Source: Burkholderiales bacterium (GTDB lineage: Bacteria > Pseudomonadota > Gammaproteobacteria > Burkholderiales > Burkholderiaceae_C). From it: a stretch of DNA of 43,344 bases. Shown one piece after another: positions 12,198 through 43,344 of this stretch. The notes below the pieces were generated by a model, which worked only from the letters and a program-made list of their open reading frames with translations, searched no databases and had not been told where the DNA came from. The position numbers were made by a program, and so were the translations under genes. The stretch covers positions 1 to 43,344 of the forward strand of contig CANGHK010000044.1 of assembly GCA_947453625.1 (NCBI GenBank), given 5' to 3'. The stretch's first letter is position 1; the number at the start of each line of letters is the position of its first letter.

Positions 12198-12514
12198 CGC
12201 CTGCTTGAAGAAACGGCTGTCCGGCACCGGTTGCAGTCGTCAGTCGACTAAAGGAGAGGGACAAGGCCGGCTTGGGCCTGTTCGGCTTGGTGATGAAATG
12301 ATGAAGTTTGTCTCTGGAGACGCGCTGGCGGATGGCGGTGTCATGGGCTTCGGCGCAGGCCAGCGCTGGTCCGGCGCGTGCCCAGAGTCGCACCCAACCT
12401 GCGCAGTGCTGCCTGTGCAGTGATGCAGGTCCTCATCTCGGTCAGTCCCGTCCGGGTCGAGCGGGGCACCCCGGACTTGCCCGGTTTTGCAAGCACGATG
12501 AAACGAAAGATGCA
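12198..12514. other. Intergenic, nothing recognised
   Basis: A 317-bp gap on the accessory patch. Open frames on both strands are short and match nothing I know. I see no promoter or hairpin of note. Confidence 0.4.
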
Positions 12515-13174
12515 ATGCCTGACTTGACTGAACATGACACAACCGCTAAGCGTGCGGATCGCTTCAAGGCGCTGGCCGATGGGGTCTTTTCCATTGCGAT
12601 GACCTTGCTGATCATCGATGTGGTGGCGGATGCGAAGCGCATGGCCCCCGGCGTGACGCTCGCAAGCCACTTGCTCCACCACTGGGGAGTCGGTGCATCG
12701 TACCTGGTGGGCTTCCTGACGATCTTCGTCTGCTGGGTGAACCAGCATGCCGTGCTGGACGCAGTCGAGCGGGTGGACCGTGCGCTGATCTGGACCGGGG
12801 GTCTGCAGTTGGCCTTGGTCGCGGCCGTTCCGCTGCCGACGGCACTGCTCGCCGACCACCTCGTGGGCGCCGACAGCCAGACGGCGTTCTTCATGTACGG
12901 CGTGACCTTCCTCTTGATTGCGAGTTCGTTCTGGGCCTTGAGCGCCAGCGCGGTGCGCCGCGGATTCATCCGCCTGGAAAGCGACCGCATGGCCGTGGTG
13001 CACCTGAACCGTGTCTACCTGATCGCCATAGGGTGGAATGTGCTCTGCCTGCTGGCCTTGCAGGTCAGCTTCTTCATGGCCTTGCCCATGTGGACGGTGA
13101 TGTTCATGGTGTTCGCGTTCCCGGGCGAGTTCGCCCGCTACGTCCACCGCAAGGTCGGTGCGGCTCGGCCGTGA
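12515..13174 (+). CDS. TMEM175-like (DUF1211) potassium channel family protein
   Basis: A 219-residue membrane protein with about six hydrophobic helices. Helix 1 carries the family signature: RADRFKALADGVFSIAMTLL corresponds to the R...FsDGvFaIaiTLL motif of prokaryotic TMEM175 proteins, where the Phe-Ser-Asp region lines the selectivity filter. Here FSD is replaced by LAD, a mild deviation. Bacterial members form tetrameric leak-type K+ channels. The ATG at 12515 begins directly before the signature, and the frame upstream lacks similarity. The gene is solitary, with intergenic stretches on both sides. Confidence 0.75.
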   Translation: MPDLTEHDTTAKRADRFKALADGVFSIAMTLLIIDVVADAKRMAPGVTLASHLLHHWGVGASYLVGFLTIFVCWVNQHAVLDAVERVDRALIWTGGLQLALVAAVPLPTALLADHLVGADSQTAFFMYGVTFLLIASSFWALSASAVRRGFIRLESDRMAVVHLNRVYLIAIGWNVLCLLALQVSFFMALPMWTVMFMVFAFPGEFARYVHRKVGAARP

Positions 13175-13531
13175 GCGCCATCGCTGCATGGCAGCGCTTC
13201 GGCTTGTGGATGCGAGCCTGCACTCGGGCCGAAAGGTCGTGATCGGCCCCCTCTGCGGTAGTTCGCAGTAGCCGCCGGGGCGAGAGGTTCGACGCTGGGT
13301 TCGGCGCAGTGAGTGCGGCTCGCCAGTGGTCAGGGATGGGGCGCGGTACGGCTTTACCAGCAAGGTCTCCATCACCGGGACGCAGAAGACCCGCGCCGGC
13401 ATCGACGGCGAGAACAACCAGACGCGTTCCCTGCTGGCAGGACGAGTTCGACATTCTCGCGGTCTCGATGCCGGGCGTCCCCGTTCGGCCTGACCGCCCC
13501 GTCTGATGCCAGACCGGCCCGCCTAGCCCGC
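13175..13531. other. Intergenic, nothing recognised
   Basis: A 357-bp gap before the 3' end of arsR. Short open frames exist on both strands, but none has a ribosome-binding site plus recognisable sequence. Confidence 0.4.
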
Positions 13532-13924
13532 CTATCCCACTTTGCCCGCGCGCGCCGCCGGCGCGCCGAAGGCCGCCCGCTGGCCGGCCGCCCGGTCGAA
13601 CTGCCTGGCGATGTTGCCGCAGACCAGATCGCACAGTGCGTACACCGCCGGGTCGGCGATGCTGAAGTAGGCGCTGTTGCCGCGCGTCTCGCGCGCGACC
13701 AGGCCGTGCTGGGCCAGCATCGCCAGGTGGCGCGAGATGTTGGCCGAGCTGAAGCCGCACAACTGCGCCAGCTCGCCGACGCTGCGTTCCTGCACCCGCA
13801 GCAGGTTGAGGATCTGCAGCCGGGTCGGCTCCGACAGCACTTGAAAGTAGGCCGCCACCTGTACCAGCGCCTCGTTGGGCAGTCCATCCATGCTCATGCA
13901 CGCTTGCAGTTGATCAGGCTTCAT
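13532..13924 (-). CDS. ArsR/SmtB-family repressor
   Basis: A 130-residue winged-helix regulator. The ArsR core runs from about residue 20 to 100: VLSEPTRLQILNLL, then the recognition region SVGELAQLCGFSSANISRHL, then the wing ETRGNSAYFSI. Candidate sensing cysteines are C9, C55 (LCG) and the pair in ALCDLVCGN near the C-terminus; their placement differs from the persulfide sensors BigR/SqrR. The protein probably represses the divergent RND efflux operon, whose promoter at 13973-14001 contains an 8-bp palindrome. The start at ATG 13924 is the longest; M11 or M13 are possible. The C-terminal third is partly duplicated at 11337-11433. Confidence 0.9.
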   Translation of the reverse strand: MKPDQLQACMSMDGLPNEALVQVAAYFQVLSEPTRLQILNLLRVQERSVGELAQLCGFSSANISRHLAMLAQHGLVARETRGNSAYFSIADPAVYALCDLVCGNIARQFDRAAGQRAAFGAPAARAGKVG

Positions 13925-33842: not shown

Positions 33843-33860
33843 GTGTCACCGCTTTGTCAT
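33843..33860 (+). promoter_or_regulatory. PHO-box-like site upstream of the PEP-domain pseudogene
   Basis: GTGTCAC-CGCT-TTGTCAT: two 7-mers 11 bp apart with a 4-nt spacer, close to the PhoB consensus (CTGTCAT repeats). CACAGT lies 10 nt downstream in the -10 position. It is oriented toward 33905. Confidence 0.55.
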
Positions 33861-33904
33861 GCAGTCTTTCCACAGTGGACAGTTTCCACCCGGAAAGAGT
33901 CGTG

Positions 33905-34371
33905 ATGAACAAGCAGGATGCGGTTGCGTCGCTCGGCCAGTTGTCCTTGTTGCAGCCAGCACGGGTACGGGCCGCGCTCAAGGCCAATGACCGGATCAAG
34001 CTTTACTTGACCTTGTTGCAGGCCGCTGGCGCGCAGGCCGCGGCGCCCGACCGTGCTGTGCTCGACCTGTCGCGCGAGATCGCCGCCGCGGCCATCGCCC
34101 CGGGTGCTCGACGAGGCCGCCGCCCGGCGCCCGCACCTCGCACGCCGCCGTGGTGGCGCGCCAGCTCGGCAAGGTCTGTCTGGTGGGCTGCGAGGCGCTG
34201 CGCATCGATCTGAGCCGGCGCACCGTGACGCTGGCAGAGCATTTGCTGGCCGAGGGCGAACTTCTGACGCTGGACGGCAACACCGGTGCGGTGTATTCGG
34301 GCTTTGCGCAGACCATCAGCGCGCCGCCCGCGGATCTGATGCTGCGCCTGGCCGCGCTGCGTGCCCCGTGA
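33905..34371 (+). pseudogene. PEP-utilising mobile-domain protein, frameshifted
   Basis: From ATG 33905 the frame reads MNKQDAVASLGQLSLLQPARV and LKANDRIKLYLTLLQAA, and stays coherent to about 34090 (SREIAAAAIA). A second frame then carries VLDEAAA, and a third, from about 34126, reads GARTSHAAVVARQLGK, VCLVGCEAL, EGELLTLDGNTGAVYSG. The latter is the phosphohistidine swivelling domain of PEP synthase/PPDK-type enzymes; TSHAAVVAR includes the family's active His. Together they would make a roughly 155-residue standalone protein, interrupted by one or two small indels between 34090 and 34130. It is either a real pseudogene or a sequencing error. It has its own PHO-box-like site. Confidence 0.6.
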
Positions 34372-34423
34372 GCGTCCACTGCGCGCTGCCCTGGTGGGCA
34401 GGCCGGGCGAGTCCGCCGCGGAC

Positions 34424-34651
34424 TCAGGACAGCAGTTGGTAGTCCTGCACCAGGGTGTAGGACTGGTGGTCGTCCAGGGTCAACTTGCAGCGCTGGCCGG
34501 GATGCATTCCGTCCAGGCCCGGCCCCTTGGTGCTGCGGGTGATGACCCAGGTGCGATCGCTGTCGTCCACCAGATAGGCCAAGCCAAATTTCGGCAGCGT
34601 CTCATGGACTGTCGCCGTTACGCATTTCTCTGAAAATTGTTGAACAACCAT
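34424..34651 (-). CDS. Small conserved-looking hypothetical protein
   Basis: A 75-residue soluble protein, from ATG 34651. It looks beta-rich: VTATVHETLPKFGLAYLVDDSDRTWVITRS, then GLDGMHPGQRCKLTLDDH and VQDYQLL. The arrangement suggests a small beta-barrel of the OB/TRAM sort, but I cannot place it in a family. A GGGGG run 6 nt before the ATG may serve as ribosome-binding site. It is divergent from the glycosyltransferase gene with a shared 190-bp control region. Confidence 0.6.
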   Translation of the reverse strand: MVVQQFSEKCVTATVHETLPKFGLAYLVDDSDRTWVITRSTKGPGLDGMHPGQRCKLTLDDHQSYTLVQDYQLLS

Positions 34652-34786
34652 GGAAAACCCCCGGTCGGAAAGGAGTTTTATCCTACAGCAGACTTCGGAG
34701 GAGGCCAATCCCGCAACTTTTGACGCTGTGCAGGCTGGTGACAGTGGCGGCCCATGTTCGACGATCGTTGCGGTGACCGTCCGCTG

Positions 34787-34804
34787 CCGTCACAGCATCG
34801 TCAC
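34787..34804 (+). promoter_or_regulatory. PHO-box-like site of the glycosyltransferase gene
   Basis: CCGTCAC-AGCA-TCGTCAC: two 7-mers 11 bp apart. CACCAT follows after exactly 10 nt in the -10 position, and CATAGT overlaps it. The coding start is 40 nt downstream of the site. Confidence 0.6.
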
Positions 34805-34843
34805 GCGCCCCGACCACCATAGTCGTATGGGATGCGCTCCGCG

Positions 34844-36043
34844 ATGAAGACTGTCGACCTGATCTACTTCAACGCCGGCGGCGGCCACCGCGCTGCCGCG
34901 CTGGCGCTGGAATCGGTGATCCGCGATCAGCAGCGGCCGTGGCGGGTGCGCTGCATCAACCTGGTGGATGTGCTCGACCCGCAGGGCCGCTTTCGCCGCG
35001 TCACCGGCATGGCGCCAGAAGACCTCTACAACCTGCGGCTGGCGCGTGGCTGGACCTTGGGCCTGGCGCAGGAGCTCAAGCTGCTGCAGGGCATGATCCA
35101 CCTCGGCCATGCCACGCTGCTGCGCCGGCTGCAAGCGCATTGGCTGCGCACCGAGCCCGACCTGGTGGTCTCGCTGGTGCCCAACTTCAACCGCGCGCTG
35201 TTCCAGAGTCTGGCTGGCGCGTTGCCTGGCGTGCCCTATGTGACGGTGCTGACCGACCTGGCCGACTACCCGCCCAACTTCTGGATCGAGCCCGACCAGG
35301 ACCAGCATTTCATCTGCGGCACGGCCAAGGCCGTTGCCCAGGCCAGGGCGACAGGCCATGGCGCAGACCGGGTGCACCGCAGCTCAGGCATGATCATCCG
35401 GCCCGATTTCTACCAGCCCGATCTGCTCGACCGCCGCGACGAGCAGTGCCGGCATGGCCTGGACCCCGACCGGCCCACCGGCGTGGTGATGTTCGGCGGC
35501 CAGGGTTCGATGGCGATGCTGGGCATCGCGCGCCAGCTCGCCGATGTGCAACTGGTGCTGATGTGCGGCCACCACCGGGACCTGGCGCGCCAGCTGCGCG
35601 CGCTGCGTCCGAGCGCCAGTCATCTGGTGGTCGAGTTCACGCCCGAGGTGCGGCGTCACATGCTGCTGGGCGATTTCTTCATCGGCAAGCCCGGCCCCGG
35701 CAGCCTGAGCGAGGCGGTGCAGCAGGGCCTGCCGGTGGTGACGGTGCGCAACGCCTGGACCATGCCCCAGGAACGCTACAACACCGATTGGGTGCGGGAG
35801 CATGGTCTGGGCGTGGTCGGCCGCTCGCTGGGCAAGATCCGGCCGGCGGTGGACGGCTTGCTGGCCGAGCTGGACCAGTACCGGCAGAACCTGCGCCGGG
35901 TCGAGAACCGCGCGGTGTTCGAAGTGCCCGCCATCCTGGCTGACATCCTGGACCCGCAGGCGACGCCGCAGCTCGGCCTAACCTTGCCGGCCATCGCGCC
36001 ACGGCGGGGCGACAGGCTGCCCATGTCGACGGCTGGATCCTGA
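34844..36043 (+). CDS. MGDG-synthase/UgtP-like glycosyltransferase (GT28 type)
   Basis: A 399-residue GT-B glycosyltransferase related to monogalactosyldiacylglycerol synthases, UgtP and MurG. The N-terminal domain begins IYFNAGGGHRAAA, the acceptor-side GGGH loop. LTDLADYPPNFWIEPDQD matches the MGDG-synthase region. The C-terminal nucleotide-sugar domain has VVMFGGQGSMAML and KPGPGSLSEAVQQGLPVV, the latter resembling the KxGPGTxxEA sugar-nucleotide loop. The likely product is a glycosylated diacylglycerol, that is, a phosphorus-free membrane lipid. The start may be 34832 (M1) or 34844 (M5); I chose the latter because the family begins MKTVDLIYF. A PHO-box-like site precedes it, fitting lipid replacement under phosphate limitation. 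Confidence 0.82.
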   Translation: MKTVDLIYFNAGGGHRAAALALESVIRDQQRPWRVRCINLVDVLDPQGRFRRVTGMAPEDLYNLRLARGWTLGLAQELKLLQGMIHLGHATLLRRLQAHWLRTEPDLVVSLVPNFNRALFQSLAGALPGVPYVTVLTDLADYPPNFWIEPDQDQHFICGTAKAVAQARATGHGADRVHRSSGMIIRPDFYQPDLLDRRDEQCRHGLDPDRPTGVVMFGGQGSMAMLGIARQLADVQLVLMCGHHRDLARQLRALRPSASHLVVEFTPEVRRHMLLGDFFIGKPGPGSLSEAVQQGLPVVTVRNAWTMPQERYNTDWVREHGLGVVGRSLGKIRPAVDGLLAELDQYRQNLRRVENRAVFEVPAILADILDPQATPQLGLTLPAIAPRRGDRLPMSTAGS

Positions 36044-36082
36044 CGGCAGGCCCGGCAGCCGACCGCGCCGTGCCAGCGGTGC

Positions 36083-36736
36083 TCAGTCGACCTTCTTGGG
36101 GCGGCCGGCCTTGATCGCGGTGAGCTTGCCCAGCAGGGCCTGCAGTTGCGTGTCACTCAGCGCGGCCAGCGCCTGCAGCCCGGCGCGCAGCAGCTCGCTC
36201 TTCTTGGTCGCGCGCTTGAAGCCCAATGCCCGCTCCTTGAGCTGGTGGATCAGCGCGAAATCGGCGCTGGGCATCGTGAAGCTGTCGCGCACCAGCTTTT
36301 CCTTGACGCGCAGGGGCTTGGCGGTGTCGGTCTTGGCAGCGCCCAGTTTGCCCGGCTTGGGAGCGGGCTTGGGTTTGACATCGGCCTTGGCACCCGCCTT
36401 GACGCTTGCCGCCGGCTTGGCGGGCTTGGCCGCTGCCGGGGCGGGCGTCGCGGGGGCGGGCACCGGCGCGGGCTTGGCCCGGCGGCTTTTCGTGACGGCA
36501 GCCGGTGGCGTGGCTTCAGCGGCGATGGCAGGGGCTGACTTGGCGGGCTTGGCGAGCTTGGCCGCTTTGGTCCGCCTGGTGGGCTGCGTCACCGCCGTGG
36601 CGGCCGTCGCATCGACCGCACGCTGTGTGGCCTTGGGCTTGTCCGCCGCGACCGGCGCGGTCGAGGGCTGGCTGGCGGCAAGCGCTGCGGCGGGCGCCGG
36701 GGTGGTGGATTCGACTTGCGGGCTGGCGCTGGACAT
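36083..36736 (-). CDS. Ala/Pro/Lys-rich protein with conserved C-terminal RHH-like domain
   Basis: A 217-residue protein in two parts. Residues 1-135 are low-complexity Ala/Pro/Lys/Thr repeats like histone H1 or an H-NS-independent nucleoid protein tail. Residues about 140-217 form a compact domain: KEKLVRDSFTMPSADFALI, LKERALGFKRATKKSELLRAG, LQALAALSDTQLQALLGKL and a terminal GRPKK. This domain is common, unnamed, in Burkholderiales; a short strand followed by two helices resembles ribbon-helix-helix DNA-binding proteins, and GRPKK is AT-hook-like. I infer DNA binding, but the target is unknown. It is divergent from the OlsB-like gene across 213 bp of intergenic DNA. Confidence 0.75.
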   Translation of the reverse strand: MSSASPQVESTTPAPAAALAASQPSTAPVAADKPKATQRAVDATAATAVTQPTRRTKAAKLAKPAKSAPAIAAEATPPAAVTKSRRAKPAPVPAPATPAPAAAKPAKPAASVKAGAKADVKPKPAPKPGKLGAAKTDTAKPLRVKEKLVRDSFTMPSADFALIHQLKERALGFKRATKKSELLRAGLQALAALSDTQLQALLGKLTAIKAGRPKKVD

Positions 36737-36887
36737 GGGTTCTGACTCCTGAAAGGTGTAAATGATTTATACAATATAGTCCTGTTTTGCGATCCTGCCA
36801 AGCGGGTGTCATCAAAAAATCGCGTCCGTTCGGGCGCCAGGCGCGGTCACCCGACCCCGGCGGCCATGCTGCAATGGTTGCTGCTGA

Positions 36888-36943
36888 TGGTCACGCAAAT
36901 GACACGCACGCTTCATCCAAGCGTCACGAGCTGGCGTGACGAT
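36888..36943 (+). promoter_or_regulatory. Four-repeat PHO-box-like array and -10 of the OlsB-like gene
   Basis: The 7-mers TGGTCAC (36888), ATGACAC (36899), GCTTCAT (36910) and GCGTCAC (36921) are spaced exactly 11 bp apart with 4-nt spacers. GACGAT (36938-36943) follows after 10 nt as a -10 element, the normal PhoB-promoter spacing. CGTCACG-AGCTGG-CGTGACG (36922-36941) is also an inverted repeat. Transcription would start at about 36950, on the start codon. Confidence 0.65.
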
Positions 36944-36949
36944 AGCGGC

Positions 36950-37798
36950 ATGAACAACGCACAAGCGCAGCGGCAGAACGGCGACCACGGCGCCGTCCCA
37001 TCGATCGCCACCCACGCCCACGGCATCACCTTGCCGGGTCAGATCCAGCGCAGCGCCGAGGTGCAGCGTCTGGAGGCCGTCTGGGCGGTGCACCAGGACG
37101 AGGTGCGCGAAGCCCAGCGCCTGCGCTACCGGGTGTTCGCCGACGAGATGGGCGCGCGGCTGACACCGCCCGCGGGCACGCCCGCCGGGCTGGATGTGGA
37201 CATCTTCGATGCCTATTGCGAGCACCTGCTGGTGCGCACCGTCGAGACCGCCGACGCGCCGGCGCAGGTGGTGGGCACCTACCGCCTGCTGACGCCGATG
37301 GCCGCGCGCCGGGTCGGCGGCCTGTACATGGACAGCGAATTCGACCTGTTGCGCCTGGACCCGCTGCGCCCGCGCATGGTCGAGATGGGCCGCACCTGCA
37401 CCGACGCGGCCTGGCGCGCGGGCGGCATCGTGCTGATGCTGTGGTCGGCGCTGGCCGAATTCATGCTGCGCAACCGGCTCGACATCACGCTGGGCTGTGC
37501 CAGCGTGCCTATGCGCGACGGCGGCCACCTGGCCGCCAGCGTCTGGAACCAGCTGCGCCAGAGCCACCTGACCGCCATCGAGTTGCAGGTCCAGCCGCGC
37601 CTGGCCTTGCCGGTGGACGAACTGCAGGGCGACCTGGATGTCGAGCCGCCGGCGCTGATCAAGGGCTACCTGAAATGCGGCGGCAAGCTGCTGGGCGCCC
37701 CGGCCTGGGACCCCGACTTCGGCACTGCCGACCTGCCGATGATGCTGGACCTGGCCGACCTGCCCGCAGCCTACCGCCGGCGCTTCATCCGCGCCTGA
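36950..37798 (+). CDS. OlsB-like GNAT N-acyltransferase (ornithine lipid synthesis)
   Basis: A 282-residue acyltransferase of the OlsB/hemolysin-like family. EAQRLRYRVFADEMGARL is the family's GNAT signature. VVGTYRLLTP, MVEMGRTCTDAAWRAGG and IKGYLKCGGKLLGAPAWDPDFGTADLPM (as separate conserved blocks) complete the pattern. OlsB transfers a 3-hydroxyacyl chain from ACP to the amino group of ornithine, the first step to phosphorus-free ornithine lipids; in several bacteria it is PhoB-induced. The ATG at 36950 is the only good start, since sequence upstream has no similarity. With the predicted promoter, the mRNA would be leaderless. OlsA is not seen in the window. Confidence 0.85.
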   Translation: MNNAQAQRQNGDHGAVPSIATHAHGITLPGQIQRSAEVQRLEAVWAVHQDEVREAQRLRYRVFADEMGARLTPPAGTPAGLDVDIFDAYCEHLLVRTVETADAPAQVVGTYRLLTPMAARRVGGLYMDSEFDLLRLDPLRPRMVEMGRTCTDAAWRAGGIVLMLWSALAEFMLRNRLDITLGCASVPMRDGGHLAASVWNQLRQSHLTAIELQVQPRLALPVDELQGDLDVEPPALIKGYLKCGGKLLGAPAWDPDFGTADLPMMLDLADLPAAYRRRFIRA

Positions 37799-37817
37799 GG
37801 CCGGCCCCGAGCAGCGG

Positions 37818-39665
37818 CTAGCGCCGCGTCAGCAGCGCGGGCAGGCCGGTGGCCAGCAGCGGCAGCGCGGCGATCAGCAGCGTGCCGATGAAGATGGCCA
37901 GCAGCGCAGGCAGCACCGACCGGGCGACATAGCCTATCGGCTTGCCGAACATCGCCGACGCGAAGTACAGATTCATGCCGGCCGGCGGGCAGAGAAAGCC
38001 CAGCTCCATCGCGGCCAGGAAGACGATGCCGAAATGCACCGGGTCCATGCCGTAGCTGCGGGCCAGCGGCAGCAGCAGCGGCACCAGCACGACGATGGCC
38101 GCGAAGATCTCCATCAGCGCGGCCGCCGCGCACAGGAACAGGCACAGCCCGAGCAGGAAGACGAACTTGTTCGGCACGGCCGAGCGCACCGCATCGATCG
38201 CCGCATCCGGAATGCCGGCGTCGACCAGAAAGTTGGTCAGCGCCAGCGCCATGCCCAGGATCAGCATCACGCCGCCTATCAGCCGCGCGCAGTCGCCCAG
38301 GCAACTGCCCAGCAGGCGCCAGCCCAGCTCGCGGTGGGCCAGGGCCTGGGTGGCCACCGCATAGGCAGCGGTCAGCGCCGCGCTCTCGGTGGGCGTGGCC
38401 AGGCCGCTGACCAGCGCGCCCACGGCCAGCACCGGCGCCAGGATCTCCCACTTGGCCCGCCATGCCGCCGCGCCCACCCCGGCCAGCCCGCGTCCGGCCA
38501 GCGGTGTGGCCGGCGCGGCGTCGGCCGGAACGAGGTCGGCGCGCTTGAGAAAGCCGCCGAAGACCAGCAGGCAGACCACCATCACGCCGGCGGGCAGCAA
38601 GCCGGCCAGCAGCATGTCCTGTATCGGCACGCGGGCGATCACCGCCACCATGATCAGCGGCACCGACGGCGCCAGCAGCACGCCCAGCGCGCTGGCGCTG
38701 GTCACCAGGCCGATGCCGCGCTGCTCGGGGTAACCCGCCCGGCCCAGCATCGGCAGCAGCAGGCCGCCCAGTGCCAGGATGGTCACGCCACTGCCGCCGG
38801 TCAGGGCCGTGAAGGCCGAGCAGAGCAGCGCGGTGGCCAGCACCGTGCCGCGCACCGCGCCGCCGAACAAGGCCAGCAGGAGCTGGCTCAAGCGCTGCGC
38901 GGCGCCGGTGCGGGCGAAGACCAGGCCGGCCAGCGTGAACAGCGGCAAGGCCGGCAGCGACGGGTTGACGGTGATCGAATAATGCGACAGCGCCACCGAC
39001 GCCAGCGGCAGTGCGTCCTGCCAGAACAGCGCCAGCGCCAGTCCGCCCAGCACGGCAAAGACCGGTGCGCCGGCCAGCAGCGCGGCCAGCAGCACCGGCA
39101 GCAGCAGCGCCAGCGGCACGGCCTGGCCGTCTAAAGCCGACCCCAGCGTCCAGCCCGCCAGTGGCAGCGCGATCGCGCAAGCCGCCCGCGCCCAGGGCAG
39201 TGCGGCGCAGCGCGCGCCCAGCTTGAGGCCCAGCAGCCCGAAACCCAGCGGCATCGCCGCCTGCACCCACCAGACCGGCACGCCGTAGGCCAGCGGCTGC
39301 GCGGCGCTGATCTCACTGGCCACGAAGCGCCAACTGGCCAGCGCCAGCAGGCCGCAGACCAGCGCCGCGCTGCCCTTGGCGAAGGCCTGCACGGCGGCCT
39401 GGATGCGCGCGCCGCCCAAGCGCCCCAGGCTGCTGCCCAGCGTCGACAGATCGCCGCTGCGCTCAGCCGCCAGCGCGCCGGCCATCGCCAGCACCAGCCC
39501 GAGGTGTTGCACCAGCACCGACGCGTTGTCCACGCCCCGGCCCAGCAGCGGCCGCAGCGCCACCTCGAGCAGCGGGATCAGCACCATCAGCGCCAGCGCC
39601 AGCCCGCCCAGCCCCGAGTCCAGCCGGCCCAGGGTTTTCAGCCTTGTGGTCAGCGGGGTCGCCAT
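37818..39665 (-). CDS. TRAP transporter fused small and large membrane subunits (DctQM)
   Basis: A 615-residue integral membrane protein. The first 170 residues form a DctQ-like four-helix domain (LIPLLEVALRPLLGRGVDNASVLVQHL). The rest is DctM-like: LPALPLFTLAGLVFARTG, LTGGSGVTILALGGLLLPML, LAPSVPLIM, LATPTESAA and ELGFLCPPAGMNLYFAS are large-subunit signatures. Fused QM proteins are a known TRAP variant. The complex imports organic acids using a Na+ gradient and a periplasmic binding protein, encoded here 3 nt upstream. Substrate cannot be told. Third gene of the tatT-dctP-dctQM operon. Confidence 0.92.
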   Translation of the reverse strand: MATPLTTRLKTLGRLDSGLGGLALALMVLIPLLEVALRPLLGRGVDNASVLVQHLGLVLAMAGALAAERSGDLSTLGSSLGRLGGARIQAAVQAFAKGSAALVCGLLALASWRFVASEISAAQPLAYGVPVWWVQAAMPLGFGLLGLKLGARCAALPWARAACAIALPLAGWTLGSALDGQAVPLALLLPVLLAALLAGAPVFAVLGGLALALFWQDALPLASVALSHYSITVNPSLPALPLFTLAGLVFARTGAAQRLSQLLLALFGGAVRGTVLATALLCSAFTALTGGSGVTILALGGLLLPMLGRAGYPEQRGIGLVTSASALGVLLAPSVPLIMVAVIARVPIQDMLLAGLLPAGVMVVCLLVFGGFLKRADLVPADAAPATPLAGRGLAGVGAAAWRAKWEILAPVLAVGALVSGLATPTESAALTAAYAVATQALAHRELGWRLLGSCLGDCARLIGGVMLILGMALALTNFLVDAGIPDAAIDAVRSAVPNKFVFLLGLCLFLCAAAALMEIFAAIVVLVPLLLPLARSYGMDPVHFGIVFLAAMELGFLCPPAGMNLYFASAMFGKPIGYVARSVLPALLAIFIGTLLIAALPLLATGLPALLTRR

Positions 39666-39668
39666 GGC

Positions 39669-40682
39669 CTACGAGCCCTTGCCGGCGCGGTAGGCCTTGA
39701 GGTGGCCAAACACCTCGTCGAAGGTCTCGGCCGGCACCATCGTGCCGCGGATGCGCGGGTAGAGCTTGTCTGCCAGGTCCTGCCACTCGCGCAGCTGCTC
39801 GGCGTTGGGCCGGTTGACGACCAGGCCGCGCTTCTTCATCGCCGCCACCGCCTCGTCCACTTCCTTGCGGGCCTGGACGCGCATGGCCGCGCCGGCTTTC
39901 TCGCCGGACGCGCGCAGCGTGGTCTGTGCCGCCGGCGTCATCTCGTCCCAGGCCTTGCGGGTGACGACCAGCGCGCCGACGATGGGCGCCCAGTTGATCT
40001 CCAGCATATGGGGCGCGGTCTCGTAGATCTGGCTGGCCAGCGCGAAGTACGGCGTCGACGGCACCACGCTGATCATGCCGGTCTGGATCGCGGGCAGGAT
40101 GTCGGCGGTCTCGAGCGGCACCGGCGTGTAGCCCAGGCTCTTCATGATGGCCTGCTGCTCGGGCTCGGAGCCCCAGGCGAAGAACTTCATGCCCTTGAAG
40201 TCGTCGGGCCGGAAAGTGGCCGTCTTAGAGAAGAAGCGCACCCAGCCGGCGTCGCCCCAGCCGAGCACGACGAAGCCCTTGTCGAGAAACTTCTTCTCCA
40301 TCGCTGGGCGCATCTTTTCGCGCACATGGTCCACCTCGTCCCAGCTCTTGAACAGCAGCGGCAGGCTTTGCAGCGCGCTGATCGACGGCTCGATCTCGCG
40401 CAGCCCGACCACCGACAACAGCGCGCCCTGCAACTGGCCTATGCGCATGCGGCGCGCCAGTTCGGCCTCGCCGCCCTGGCTGCCGTCGGTGAAGACGACG
40501 AACTTGGCACCCCCGCCCTGGGCGGCGCGCCAGGCCTCGCCCAGTTCCAGCAGTTGCTGGTGGTAGGGCGAGTTCTTGGGCACCAGGCTGGCGATCCGCA
40601 GCGCGCTGCCAGCCGGATGGCTGGCCAGCGGCAGCGTGAGCCCGAGCCAGAGGAGGGCGGCGAATCTTGTCAAGCGGTTCAT
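39669..40682 (-). CDS. TRAP transporter substrate-binding protein (DctP)
   Basis: A 337-residue periplasmic binding protein with a signal peptide (residues 1-27). It has the DctP layout: LRIASLVPKNSPYHQQLLELGEAW at the N-terminus, then DGSQGGEAELARRMRIGQLQGA. The ligand-binding domain includes WGDAGWVRFFSK and FKGMKFFAWGSEPEQQAIM. The canonical Arg of carboxylate-binding members (about residue 170) is not evident in the stretch FRPDDFKGMKFFAW, so the ligand may not be a simple carboxylate. It lies 24 nt after tatT and 3 nt before the fused dctQM. Confidence 0.9.
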   Translation of the reverse strand: MNRLTRFAALLWLGLTLPLASHPAGSALRIASLVPKNSPYHQQLLELGEAWRAAQGGGAKFVVFTDGSQGGEAELARRMRIGQLQGALLSVVGLREIEPSISALQSLPLLFKSWDEVDHVREKMRPAMEKKFLDKGFVVLGWGDAGWVRFFSKTATFRPDDFKGMKFFAWGSEPEQQAIMKSLGYTPVPLETADILPAIQTGMISVVPSTPYFALASQIYETAPHMLEINWAPIVGALVVTRKAWDEMTPAAQTTLRASGEKAGAAMRVQARKEVDEAVAAMKKRGLVVNRPNAEQLREWQDLADKLYPRIRGTMVPAETFDEVFGHLKAYRAGKGS

Positions 40683-40706
40683 GGGGCAGGGTCAGGTCGT
40701 TGGAAT

Positions 40707-41642
40707 TCAGAAACGGTCGGCGGCGCTGTCGATCAGCCACTGCGCGCGCTCGCGCATCACCGCGTTGGCCAGGTTGGGGTGGGCGGTGGCGATGGCGATC
40801 GCCTGACGCAACAGCGCGTCGAAGCTGGCGCGGTCGCCCGCCGCCAAGGCCAGCGTCTCGGCCTTGGCCACCCAGGGCCCCGCGCTGCGGCCGGCGCTGG
40901 CGGCGATCGCGAGGTCGAAATAGGCCTCGGCCTGGCGCGTCGATCCACCCGGTCGCGCCGACTCGAAGCTGCCCATCAGGCTGGCCAGCGCGCCGTCGCC
41001 ATGGCCGGGGTCTATCGCCCAGGCCAGCCGCGCCAGCGCGATCGCCCGCGGCAGGTCGGCCACGGCGTCGGGTTTGTCCTTGGACAGCGAGATGCCAGCG
41101 CCCCAGGCCGCTGCCGCCCAATACGCCACCCCCACCTGGTCGGCCGTCAACTGCGGCTTGTCGTCGGCCGGCGCCCCCGGCGAGCCCTGCACACCGGCCA
41201 GCCAGGGGGCCCATCCCGGGTGGTGCTCGGCCAGCGCGGCGATGGCGTGGTCCCGCGCCCGCCAGTACAGCCGGGCAGCCCGCTCGCGCAGGCGCTGCGC
41301 GGCCTTGGCGTCGCTGGCCTCGATGCGGTCGGCGTCCATCGCGATGAAGGCGTAGGCGTATTGGGTGAAGCCGCCGGCCACCGCCTCGGCCAGCGGCAGG
41401 TGGCCCGGCGTCTGGCGCAGCACCGATTCCGACAGCTTGAGGTAGAACGCGCTGGCCTCGCGCGCCAGCCCCAGGTCGTCCTCGGCGGCCTGCCCTTGGC
41501 TGGCCAACTGGTCGGCCGCCGCCCGCACCAGCAGCGTCTGCGGCGCGCAGGCGCTGAGCGCGGCCGCTGCGGCCACCGCGGCGATCAACCCCATCGATCG
41601 CCATGCCGCCCGGGTGGATTCACCAAACTTGCATCTCGTCAT
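40707..41642 (-). CDS. TRAP-associated lipoprotein, TatT component
   Basis: A 311-residue lipoprotein with lipobox ALSAC (C32) and an all-helical, TPR-like body rich in Ala. Blocks such as AFYLKLSESVLRQTPGHLPL, YAYAFIAMDADRIEASD and LYWRARDHAI are typical of the TatT (PF16811) family. TatT proteins form trimers that associate with the TRAP binding protein, described for Treponema, and may pass hydrophobic ligands to it. The start ATG 41642 is the family-consistent one; the frame continues upstream without similarity. It heads the TRAP operon and lies 79 nt behind the metallophosphoesterase on the same strand. Confidence 0.85.
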   Translation of the reverse strand: MTRCKFGESTRAAWRSMGLIAAVAAAAALSACAPQTLLVRAAADQLASQGQAAEDDLGLAREASAFYLKLSESVLRQTPGHLPLAEAVAGGFTQYAYAFIAMDADRIEASDAKAAQRLRERAARLYWRARDHAIAALAEHHPGWAPWLAGVQGSPGAPADDKPQLTADQVGVAYWAAAAWGAGISLSKDKPDAVADLPRAIALARLAWAIDPGHGDGALASLMGSFESARPGGSTRQAEAYFDLAIAASAGRSAGPWVAKAETLALAAGDRASFDALLRQAIAIATAHPNLANAVMRERAQWLIDSAADRF

Positions 41643-41721
41643 GGTTTCAGTATTCGTTGAATGGCGCGCGGCCAGTGCGCGGGCGTCGACCGGTTCGGCC
41701 TGATGCCTGATGTCCGCAGCG

Positions 41722-42675
41722 TCAGACCAGGCTGGCCGGGCGCTCCATCGCAGCCTGGCCACGCATCGCGCCGCTCAGCCCGGGCACGGCGCTGGGCGCT
41801 GGCAGCGGGCTCGCGGCCATGGCCGGCGCACGGGCGGCCGCGCTGGTCAGTGCCCGCTGCGCCGACCAGTCGGCGATCTCCAGTCGGCCGTCGGCATGCT
41901 CGACCAGTGCGGTCAGGCTTTCGACCCAGTCACCGTCGTTGCAATACAGCACGCCGTCGATCTCGCGCATCTCGGCATGGTGGATGTGGCCGCAGACGAC
42001 GCCCTGCATGCCGCGCTTGCGCGCCTCGCGCGCCACCGCGATCTCGAAATCGCAGACATAGCTGACGGCGCGTTTGACCTTGAGCTTGAGGTAGCTCGAC
42101 AAGCTCCAGTAGGGCAGGCCGAAGCGCGCCCGCACGCTGTTGAACCACTGGTTCAGCTTGAGCGTCACGCCATAGGCCGAGTCGCCGAGGTAGGCCAGCC
42201 ACTTGGCGCACTGGATCACGCCGTCGAACAGGTCGCCGTGGGTGACCCACAGCTTGCGGCCATCGGCCGTGATGTGCACCGCCTCGGCCACCACATCGAC
42301 GCCGCCGAAGTTGTGCTCGACATAGCGCCGTGCGAACTCGTCGTGGTTGCCCGGCACGAAGATCACCCGCGTGCCCTTGCGCGCCTTGCGCAGGATCTTC
42401 TGCAGCACGTCGTTGTGCGCCTGCGGCCAGTACCAGCTGCGCCGCAGCTGCCAGCCGTCGATGATGTCGCCCACCAGGTAGAGCGTGTCGCACTCGACTT
42501 GCTTGAGAAAGTCCAGCAGCGCGCGTGCCTGGCAGCCCGGCGTGCCCAGGTGCAGGTCGGAGATCCAGACGGTGCGGTAGCGCAGGTGGCCGGCACTGGT
42601 GTCGGCCTCGTCATCGGCCCGCGCATCGGCGGAGTTGGCGGCGGTCATGGCGGCAGTCATGGCATCGGTCAGCAT
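41722..42675 (-). CDS. PlcP/LpxH-like metallophosphoesterase
   Basis: A 317-residue calcineurin-like phosphoesterase. The metal motifs are complete: D40-L-H42 (SDLHLG), GD70xxDGW, GN110H111DEF, H146GD and GH230IH232. It belongs to the group annotated as UDP-2,3-diacylglucosamine pyrophosphatase-like, which includes PlcP of Sinorhizobium, a PhoB-induced phospholipase C that turns phospholipids into diacylglycerol under phosphate starvation. LpxH proper is shorter (about 240 residues); this one has a longer C-terminal tail (270-317, Ala/Pro-rich). PHO-box-like repeats upstream favour the PlcP reading. ATG 42675 is the first start in the frame apart from TTG 42684. Confidence 0.8.
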   Translation of the reverse strand: MLTDAMTAAMTAANSADARADDEADTSAGHLRYRTVWISDLHLGTPGCQARALLDFLKQVECDTLYLVGDIIDGWQLRRSWYWPQAHNDVLQKILRKARKGTRVIFVPGNHDEFARRYVEHNFGGVDVVAEAVHITADGRKLWVTHGDLFDGVIQCAKWLAYLGDSAYGVTLKLNQWFNSVRARFGLPYWSLSSYLKLKVKRAVSYVCDFEIAVAREARKRGMQGVVCGHIHHAEMREIDGVLYCNDGDWVESLTALVEHADGRLEIADWSAQRALTSAAARAPAMAASPLPAPSAVPGLSGAMRGQAAMERPASLV

Positions 42676-42683
42676 GGGTCGCA

Positions 42684-42728
42684 ATCGTCAGGCCAGCGCG
42701 TGACAGGCGTGGGGCAGCGCCGTGACAA
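42684..42728 (-). promoter_or_regulatory. PHO-box-like array and -10 of the metallophosphoesterase gene
   Basis: On the minus strand TTGTCAC (42728-42722), CTGCCCC (42717-42711), CTGTCAC (42706-42700) and TGGCCTG (42695-42689) are phased at 11 bp. GACGAT (42689-42684) follows the CTGTCAC box after 10 nt. From the last GTCAC to the start codon, the sequence is nearly the same as in the OlsB-like promoter. Confidence 0.65.
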
Positions 42729-42772
42729 GGGCGTGAAATGGCTTTCGCGCGACAGGGTTTCACCCAGACCGT

Positions 42773-42790
42773 CGGTCACCTGCCTGTCAC
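42773..42790 (+). promoter_or_regulatory. PHO-box-like site of the lplT-like gene
   Basis: CGGTCAC-CTGC-CTGTCAC: two 7-mers 11 bp apart, oriented toward 42852 and divergent from the array for the metallophosphoesterase. No convincing -10 element is seen at the expected distance. Confidence 0.5.
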
Positions 42791-42851
42791 CAAACCGTTG
42801 CGAGCCGCTGCGAACATCGCTCGCCATGAGCCCCTGCCTGTTGCTGTCCGC

Positions 42852-43344
42852 ATGAATGTCGATGTTGCCGAGCCCGAGGCCGGGCCCCGGGCCGACGGGT
42901 CTGGCGCTGGCCTGCGCATGCCGCCTGGCTTCCACCGTCTGATCGCGGCCCAGTTCTGTTCGGCGCTGGCCGACAACGCCTTGCTGATCGTGACCATCGC
43001 GCTGCTGCAGGCGCGCGGCCTGCCGGGCTGGCTGGCGCCGATGCTCAAGTTCGCGTCCACCCTGTCCTATGTCGTGCTGGCGCCGTTTGTCGGCCCGCTG
43101 GCCGACGCCATGCCCAAGGCCAGGCTGATGGCCTGGGCCAACGCGCTCAAGCTGCTGGCCTTGCTGGGCTTGATGGCCGGGGGCCACCCGCTGCTGTGTT
43201 TTGCGCTGCTGGGTTGCGGCGCGGCGGCCTATGCGCCAGCCAAGTACGGCCTGGCCACCGAACTGGTGCCGGCGCGCCAGCTGGTGGCGGCCAACGGCTG
43301 GATCGAGGTCTCGGTGGTCGGCGCGGTCTTGCTGGGCACGGTGC
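42852..43344 (+). CDS. lplT: LplT-like lysophospholipid transporter (MFS), 5' part
   Basis: The first 164 residues of a major-facilitator protein cut by the window end. After a 25-residue hydrophilic leader the sequence FHRLIAAQFCSALADNALLIVTIALL matches the start of LplT, which flips lysophospholipids inward for re-acylation. VVLAPFVGPLADAMPKARLMAWANALKLLALLGL is the MFS loop 2-3 region, and CGAAAYAPAKYGLATELVPARQLVAANGW is strongly LplT-like (blocks quoted separately). Role in lipid turnover agrees with the neighbouring metallophosphoesterase and the PHO-box-like site. A nine-codon ORF from ATG 42826 ends in TGA overlapping this ATG. Confidence 0.83.
   Translation, partial: MNVDVAEPEAGPRADGSGAGLRMPPGFHRLIAAQFCSALADNALLIVTIALLQARGLPGWLAPMLKFASTLSYVVLAPFVGPLADAMPKARLMAWANALKLLALLGLMAGGHPLLCFALLGCGAAAYAPAKYGLATELVPARQLVAANGWIEVSVVGAVLLGTV

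Follow-up and report, generated by a model that had tools for sequence, protein, structure and literature searches.

How might a bacterium of the Burkholderiales replace its phospholipids when phosphate is scarce, and which genes would take part? This question is raised by contig C44 of a 5.18-Mb draft genome (the window, 43,344 bases), whose last 9.5 kb, positions 33843 to 43344, form an island of lipid genes behind five PHO-box-like promoters. A first-pass annotation, made from the sequence of the window, had named here a glycosyltransferase resembling monogalactosyldiacylglycerol (MGDG) synthase, an OlsB-like acyltransferase, a PlcP-like phosphoesterase, an LplT-like lysolipid transporter, and a pseudogene with a phosphoenolpyruvate (PEP) domain; domain, profile, and relic evidence bears out these gene calls. 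The island is quite probably a PhoB-controlled module of membrane-lipid substitution and recycling. It would represent a known kind of lipid-remodelling system with a glycosyltransferase of family GT28 in place of a GT4 enzyme, a reading that is well supported by computation. A TRAP transporter of the TPAT type encoded next to plcP is the bolder lead, and the short leaders of plcP are one regularity deserving tests.

PHO Boxes in the Window and the Genome

The pstS promoters of the same family show a 7-4-7 box, followed by 10 bases and a TAGAGT-like −10 hexamer. Among 29 pstS-like upstream regions, 26 contain a clear tandem box, and 25 of these, after removal of the genome under study, make up a matrix of 34 columns (7-4-7 box, 10 nucleotides, and −10 hexamer). 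On both strands of the window, the five best matches to the two-unit matrix are those upstream of the PEP relic (33843+, score of 20.6), plcP (42739−, 20.2), olsB (36888+, 14.0), lplT (42773+, 13.8), and the glycosyltransferase gene (34787+, 13.7). The independently trained matrix thereby ranks exactly the five promoters of the first-pass annotation on top. All five carry the tandem 7-4-7 TGTCAY-like boxes of Pho regulon promoters, and the chance that all five top matches fall in upstream regions is ∼2e-10 (200 bases each; a rough and post hoc figure).

The promoter of the PEP relic (33843..33876, +) reads GTGTCAC-4-TTGTCAT-10-CACAGT and is the best site of the window in the full 34-column matrix (24.6); the only other site exceeding the null 95% point of 11.5 is that of olsB (14.2). 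The glycosyltransferase gene is preceded by CCGTCAC-4-TCGTCAC-10-CACCAT (34787..34820, +). The olsB promoter (36888..36943, +) contains units at 36888, 36899, 36910, and 36921, and the plcP promoter (42684..42739, −) contains units at 42739, 42728, 42717, and 42706; in both, a −10-like GACGAT (at 36938 and at 42689-42684, respectively) fits in a later box register. The PHO-like promoter of lplT (42773..42817, +) reads CGGTCAC-4-CTGTCAC-4-CCGTTGC-10-GAACAT, with the third unit and the −10 hexamer assigned by eye.

In the genome as a whole, GTCAYN6GTCAY occurs 35 times, compared to 9 times for the reversed control, and 3 of the 35 matches fall in the window contig (binomial, 0.003). The genome encodes PhoB (331 bits, above the cut-off) 3.6 kb from pstS on contig C4.

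Genes of the Island

The island begins with the PEP relic (+), an open reading frame (ORF) of 75 residues (−), the glycosyltransferase gene (+), an H1-like ORF rich in alanine and lysine (−), and olsB (+). These are followed by dctQM, dctP, TAtT, and plcP, all on the minus strand, and by the start of lplT (+) at the contig end; the window is the whole contig, and lplT is therefore cut by the assembly.

The glycosyltransferase (34832..36043, +; start at 34832 or 34844) was classified by profile and model fold. An alignment of 22 sequences was built from the window protein and 21 of 25 family orthologues; two that contain internal stops and two whose starts are doubtful were excluded. Its profile finds Arabidopsis MGD1 (4wyi) as the first match over nearly the full length (1.9e-36), the processive UgtP-like diacylglycerol glucosyltransferase 9wde at 4.8e-28, and MurG weakly at 3.1e-5. 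Single aligned members match GT28_C in 20 of the 22 cases and MGDG_synth in 8 at an E value of 0.01. The predicted structure (pLDDT 88, pTM 0.85) shows a GT-B fold, and its top Foldseek match is again MGD1 4wyi (6.1e-18, TM of 0.83 by target), with 21% identity in the structural alignment. A GT4-type Agt was considered and is not favoured, since profile and fold point to GT28 instead. From profile and model it is concluded that the protein is a putative GT28 diacylglycerol glycosyltransferase, nearest to the plant MGDG synthase.

The metallophosphoesterase encoded at 41722..42675 (−) matches PF12850/PF00149, and inspection by eye finds the metal motifs of calcineurin-like phosphoesterases intact (DLHLG, GDIIDGW, GNHDE, THGDLFD, and GHIHHAE); it is called PlcP-like on the strength of these motifs and its gene neighbours. 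The OlsB-like N-acyltransferase of the GNAT type (36950..37798, +) matches PF13444 at 6.5e-29 and the NCBIfam OlsB model at 1.9e-41, below the cut-off. An OlsA-like candidate is encoded elsewhere in the genome (L195), the best of 6 acyltransferases scanned, with 110.7 of 300 bits. The N-terminal part of the LplT-like lysophospholipid transporter (42852..43344, +) matches NCBIfam LplT at 2.2e-57 over model positions 2-142 of 414.

The relic of a PPDK-like PEP-utilising gene (33905..34371, +) retains ∼65 residues of the N terminus and ∼80 of the C terminus, which lie in different frames, and lacks the middle. The C-terminal part matches PF00391 at 2.9e-10, and the N-terminal part matches no Pfam family. 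Both ends were found in 11 other genomes, with starts ∼3.4 kb apart, and a relative carries PPDK_N plus PEP-utilizers domains. PHO-like promoters scoring at least 12 precede 5 of these 11 PPDK-like loci (12.2-17.7; L290, L291, L293, L295, and L297), which indicates that the Pho regulon of the family may include a PEP/pyruvate enzyme.

The minus-strand ORF at 36083-36736 encodes 217 residues rich in alanine, lysine, and proline that match no Pfam family; of the 16 OlsB or OlsB-PlcP stretches fetched, 10 contain a counterpart of its C-terminal part.

Recurrence across Relatives

The family survey covered 150 genomes, the present one included, and strong homologues were counted in the others: 25 genomes for the glycosyltransferase, 105 for PlcP, and 118 for OlsB, after 5, 10, and 5 genomes, respectively, were dropped as weak matches. 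PlcP is present in all 25 glycosyltransferase genomes (Fisher, 6.8e-5, calculated with 125 other genomes where 124 is correct, a slight change). In 18 of them, it lies no more than 2 kb from the glycosyltransferase gene, in one of three arrangements: PlcP then glycosyltransferase, the reverse order, or facing. Of the 98 genomes carrying both OlsB and PlcP, 45 have the two within 12 kb, and 41 of these show OlsB followed by PlcP on one strand with a gap of 6-346 bp. PlcP is the partner of OlsB in some lineages and of the glycosyltransferase in others, and all three occur in the window.

Upstream PHO scores exceed the 95% control for 14 of 25 glycosyltransferase, 16 of 18 PlcP, 2 of 2 OlsB, and 0 of 2 LplT genes, and the 99% control for 4, 6, 1, and 0 genes, respectively. 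The six glycosyltransferase genes located no more than 80 bp downstream of PlcP on the same strand score under the 95% control, as an operon predicts. LplT as a conserved Pho target was dropped since the site was not found at the two loci tested. The first-pass reading, exchange of phospholipids for glyco- and ornithine lipids, gains from the recurrent glycosyltransferase-PlcP and OlsB-PlcP neighbours and from the PHO sites upstream of orthologues.

In a public genome collection, the best 80 of at least 562 confirmed relatives of the glycosyltransferase, with flanks of up to 6 kb, stem from Hydrogenophaga, Variovorax, Thauera, Aromatoleum, Rubrivivax, Thiocapsa, Thiodictyon, and others.

As side observations, the distance between OlsB and pstS is at most 10 kb in 6 of the 19 genomes in which both were located (G088, G023, G010, G018, G147, and G032), and the same-genus locus L176 encodes a phytase-like protein with a PEP-CTERM motif (12225-13640, −) between OlsB and PlcP, in the place of the TRAP genes of the window.

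The TPAT Genes beside plcP

The first-pass annotation described a set of genes for glyco- and ornithine lipids and lysolipid recycling, a reading that is supported; it passed over the TRAP genes, which are probably part of the set. plcP, TAtT, dctP, and dctQM are consecutive on the same strand, separated by 79, 24, and 3 bases. No PHO site scoring at least 8 was found upstream of the window TAtT itself, and the 79-base gap from plcP to TAtT contains no terminator-like site according to a simple scan. The arrangement looks like one plcP-TAtT-DctP-DctQM operon.

TAtT, the TRAP T-component (40707..41642, −), matches PF16811 at 9.2e-51 and TatT Tp0956 (3u64) at 6.5e-18, and an LSAC lipobox is apparent by eye in its leader. 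The DctP substrate-binding protein (39669..40682, −; PF03480) matches TatP(T) 4di3 at 1.9e-16 amid general DctPs, some of which score better. Together with the fused DctQM permease (37818..39665, −; PF06808 and PF04290), these genes unite TAtT, DctP, and fused DctQM in one cluster, the mark of a TPAT. The arginine of general DctPs is absent in 34 of 34 aligned TPAT DctPs, and the window protein has a phenylalanine at that column. The column is presumably that of the ligand-binding arginine.

Within the order, 43 other genomes contain TAtT at an E value of 0.001; the 24 best full-length loci were fetched. Separately, L221, whose weak TAtT gave no match when examined again, was excluded. Of the 15 close relatives, which represent six families, 12 have a PHO promoter scoring above 12 with a good −10 hexamer upstream of TAtT; this threshold was chosen after the scores were seen (99% control, 10.9; 95% control, 2.6), and L219 reaches 22.7. 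A tree of 34 DctPs groups the close relatives with the window in a single clade (98/94), and of its 16 members 13 are labelled PHO, the window via the plcP promoter. PHO control of the distant TPATs was rejected, with 0 of 18 above 12; the distant L253 has a two-unit box scoring 19.3 without a fitting −10 hexamer.

LplT, PlcP, or OlsB occurs in the fetched stretch (up to 20 kb) in 6 of the 15 close relatives, where a rough expectation is ∼1.5% per locus (binomial, 5e-8). L212 contains LplT, PlcP, OlsB, and the TPAT within 10 kb. In L270, LplT lies 3′ of DctQM on the same strand with the aligned parts 24 bases apart, and in L217, LplT is divergent from TAtT. PlcP accompanies the TPAT in L213, and OlsB does so in L214 and L215. 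The TPAT thus probably belongs to the lipid programme. In addition, L265 and L266, from a distant TPAT clade of another family, have PlcP ∼5 kb away without a PHO promoter above 12.

A possible, still tentative function of the clade is that of a phosphate-starvation lipid carrier, in which TAtT would take a remodelling lipid or lysolipid from the outer membrane and pass it to DctP, and the permease and LplT would return it. The Pho link is a hint from gene context to the cargo of TPATs.

Short Leaders before plcP

In the window, the distance from the end of the −10 hexamer to the ATG is 8 nucleotides for plcP, 6 for olsB (later register), and 11 in frame for the glycosyltransferase gene. For comparison across loci, which are distinct by sequence and include close relatives, a two-unit PHO score of at least 8 and a hexamer with A2 and T6 were required; the register was picked among four by script without use of the gap, and a gap was called short if the first in-frame ATG lies 4-11 nucleotides after the hexamer. 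Among 75 distinct plcP loci, 55 are PHO positive and 42 of these have a hexamer, with a short gap in 37 and a gap of exactly 8 nucleotides in 27. The glycosyltransferase gene shows a short gap in 22 of 42 loci with a hexamer (50 PHO positive of 106) and TAtT in 1 of 5, compared to 1 of 26 for pstS with score and hexamer under the same script. For OlsB, a short gap was rejected as a feature, with 8 of 39 loci (43 PHO positive of 50) not differing significantly from pstS (p of 0.07).

A −10-like hexamer ∼8 nucleotides before the plcP ATG predicts a leaderless or nearly leaderless mRNA, and its conservation predicts that a stress enzyme is translated without a leader. Several mRNAs of the island probably start at the start codon or only a few bases away from it. 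Transcripts of this type are known from the order, as the covered part of a study on Burkholderia cenocepacia places the primary transcription start site at the annotated start in 72 genes and within 10 nucleotides in 42 more, 24 of all being tRNAs (PMC4603805).

Mini-ORFs of 6 and 9 codons follow the −10 boxes of the glycosyltransferase gene and lplT (34827-34847 and 42826-42855), their TGA overlapping the gene start as ATGA. This overlap could couple a leaderless mini-ORF to the gene. As a conserved feature it was rejected: an upstream ATG running into ATGA occurs in 19 of 84 glycosyltransferase loci, many in seemingly coding DNA.

Proposed Mechanism

The computed genes, sites, neighbours, and fold suggest the following course. 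At low phosphate, PhoB would bind the phased 7-4-7 boxes and recruit the polymerase to the −10 hexamer ten bases downstream. PlcP, judged by the known role of its family, would cleave phospholipid head groups to leave diacylglycerol, to which the GT28 enzyme may add a sugar, giving a lipid like MGDG or glucosyl-diacylglycerol. OlsB, with the OlsA-like enzyme encoded elsewhere, would provide ornithine lipid, and LplT would return lysolipid to the inner leaflet. TAtT-DctP-DctQM, if cotranscribed with plcP, may carry a hydrophobic product or a fatty acid across the periplasm.

Alternative Explanations

Several results weigh against a PhoB-controlled lipid module. By score, three of the five sites in the window are unremarkable: the best match per sequence among 60 Markov shuffles has a median of 13.1 and a 95% point of 17.2, which only 33843+ and 42739− exceed, and the full-matrix scores for the glycosyltransferase gene (7.8), plcP (4.0), and lplT (−2.4) lie below the null 95% point. 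Two-unit matches scoring at least 8 number 9, compared to a null mean of 6.9, and a plain consensus scan for 11-bp-phased units gives 8 (null mean, 4.5; maximum, 10) and was discarded as not beating the null. An unrelated PHO-like 34-mer outside the island (9356+, 11.1) is third in the full-matrix ranking. The orthologue control of 1,000 random segments from the same loci is mostly coding, hence lenient, and ignores relatedness; the lplT site is absent upstream of both other family LplT genes tested. That the sites are chance GTCAC repeats in GC-rich DNA is nevertheless hardly credible, given the matrix with exactly those five sites on top, the excess of genome matches, and the recurrence upstream of orthologues. 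The first-pass annotation had held that sites no commoner than chance would count against it; the counts are moderate, yet the best five sit at the named promoters. With three sites ordinary by score, position and recurrence carry the case.

The sites could also be real while the genes serve otherwise, the glycosyltransferase acceptor not being diacylglycerol and the PlcP-like protein being a general or LpxH-like phosphodiesterase that salvages phosphate. The PlcP-like protein partly matches LpxH in NCBIfam and PDB, and the window glycosyltransferase alone stays under every Pfam cut-off (MGDG_synth, 17.9 of 25 bits; no GT28_C at an E value of 0.01). Against the module as a whole, OlsB reaches 142.5 of 350 bits of the NCBIfam equivalog cut-off and is kept as OlsB-like, and LplT, cut by the contig end, scores 195 of 297 bits, with a third of the model matched. 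PlcP is found in only 21 of the best 80 glycosyltransferase loci, OlsB in 3, LplT in 2, and TAtT in none. Both same-genus genomes searched lack the glycosyltransferase; one (L176) has PlcP and OlsB, with no LplT in its 20-kb stretch, and the other has OlsB alone. A different function of the genes is nonetheless improbable, as the whole glycosyltransferase profile ranks MGD1 and the diacylglycerol glucosyltransferase ahead of MurG and PlcP is tied by neighbourhood to the glycosyltransferase or OlsB. For the TPAT, a role as a passenger, an importer of organic acids or hydrocarbons that lies downstream of plcP by chance, is unlikely, given that 12 of 15 close relatives have a PHO promoter of their own upstream of TAtT and that lipid genes lie near the TPAT in 6 of the 15. 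Such a role would agree with the rarity of TAtT (11 of 150 family genomes, the present one included, and neither same-genus genome, one of which has the phytase-like gene at that place), with its absence from the 80 glycosyltransferase loci, and with the lack of a listed lipid gene in the fetched stretch at 9 of 15 close and 16 of 18 distant loci. TPATs of free-living proteobacteria are found mostly in hydrocarbon degraders, according to the part of a review covered (PMC5812351), and organic-acid ligands are mentioned in the covered part of another paper. dctP contains a terminator-like match (2 found, compared to 1.4 expected), 3 of 15 close TPATs have no PHO score above 12, and 6 of 18 distant ones exceed the 95% control of 2.6. 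The short spacing, finally, would be an artefact of hexamer choice in GC-rich DNA if transcription starts further upstream; the hexamers CAGCAT, GACGAT, and CACCAT are weak, the register is script-chosen among four, and 13 of 55 PHO-positive plcP loci have no acceptable hexamer and fall outside the 42. This is somewhat unlikely, since the gap played no part in the choice and the same procedure gives 1 short gap in 26 for pstS versus 37 in 42 for plcP, 27 of them at exactly 8 nucleotides.

Comparison with Known Systems

Among the matches listed in the literature searches, in which subscription literature is mostly uncovered, no paper was found that joins GT28 with PlcP or that connects the Pho regulon with a TPAT or with leaderless starts. 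The first-pass view that a GT28 enzyme with PlcP in a PhoB-type island is little described agrees with this, and the pairing is not peculiar to this genome. As for the novelty of PHO control over PlcP and OlsB, PHO boxes before olsB of Burkholderiales and PlcP-glycosyltransferase pairs are already in print.

The covered parts of PMC4796936 and PMC8528852 describe PlcP beside a glycosyltransferase with PHO boxes in marine Alphaproteobacteria and Pseudomonas aeruginosa. This PlcP-Agt remodelling shares with the window PlcP next to a diacylglycerol glycosyltransferase and the PHO boxes. Agt, the partner characterised in those systems, is a GT4 enzyme, and the processive Pgt enzymes are of GT21 (PMC8231724, as far as covered), whereas the partner in the window is a GT28 enzyme nearest to plant MGD1 and UgtP-like enzymes. 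The covered text of PMC4796936 mentions GT28 0 times and lists further putative glycosyltransferases, and the contrast rests on the characterised Agt and Pgt. MGD1 and processive UgtP/YpfP, both GT28, have the same fold, and the profile match is nearly full length, although the window protein is 21% identical to MGD1. Phosphate-driven lipid exchange is thus described with GT4 (and GT21) enzymes in the covered parts of these papers, and in many Burkholderiales and their relatives the GT4 role appears to be filled by a GT28 enzyme akin to the MGDG synthase of chloroplasts; homologues of this enzyme also occur in Thiocapsa and Thiodictyon. In Burkholderia sensu lato, olsB likewise lies behind a PHO box (PMC7814305); PlcP has 0 occurrences in the main text of that paper, and the window sets olsB with plcP and the glycosyltransferase gene.

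The TPAT class probably moves hydrophobic molecules, and its DctP mostly has an alanine for the usual arginine, according to the part of the review covered (PMC5812351). The TatT-TatP(T)-TatQM system of Treponema pallidum (3u64 and 4di3) likewise shows a TAtT, a DctP without the arginine, and a fused DctQM, and a hydrophobic or lipid cargo is proposed there (PMC5812351). The window system differs by its Pho link, its place beside lipid-remodelling genes, and a phenylalanine at the arginine site, where alanine is most frequent in that class. Both binding proteins of T. pallidum are lipoproteins, whereas in the window a lipobox is apparent by eye only in TAtT. The TatT-like BstC, described in a paper on sterol-binding domains, belongs to the same PF16811 superfamily and is linked to lipid binding; unlike the Pho-linked TAtT of the window, it stands in a sterol context in a methanotroph, with no Pho link in the text portion covered (PMC10942540). 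An ethanolamine TRAP transporter takes part in phospholipid use, with no T-component in the text portion covered (PMC10132767). If the TPAT of the window is a lipid carrier, the Pho regulon would include a TRAP system for lipids, and an orphan class of transporters would gain a function.

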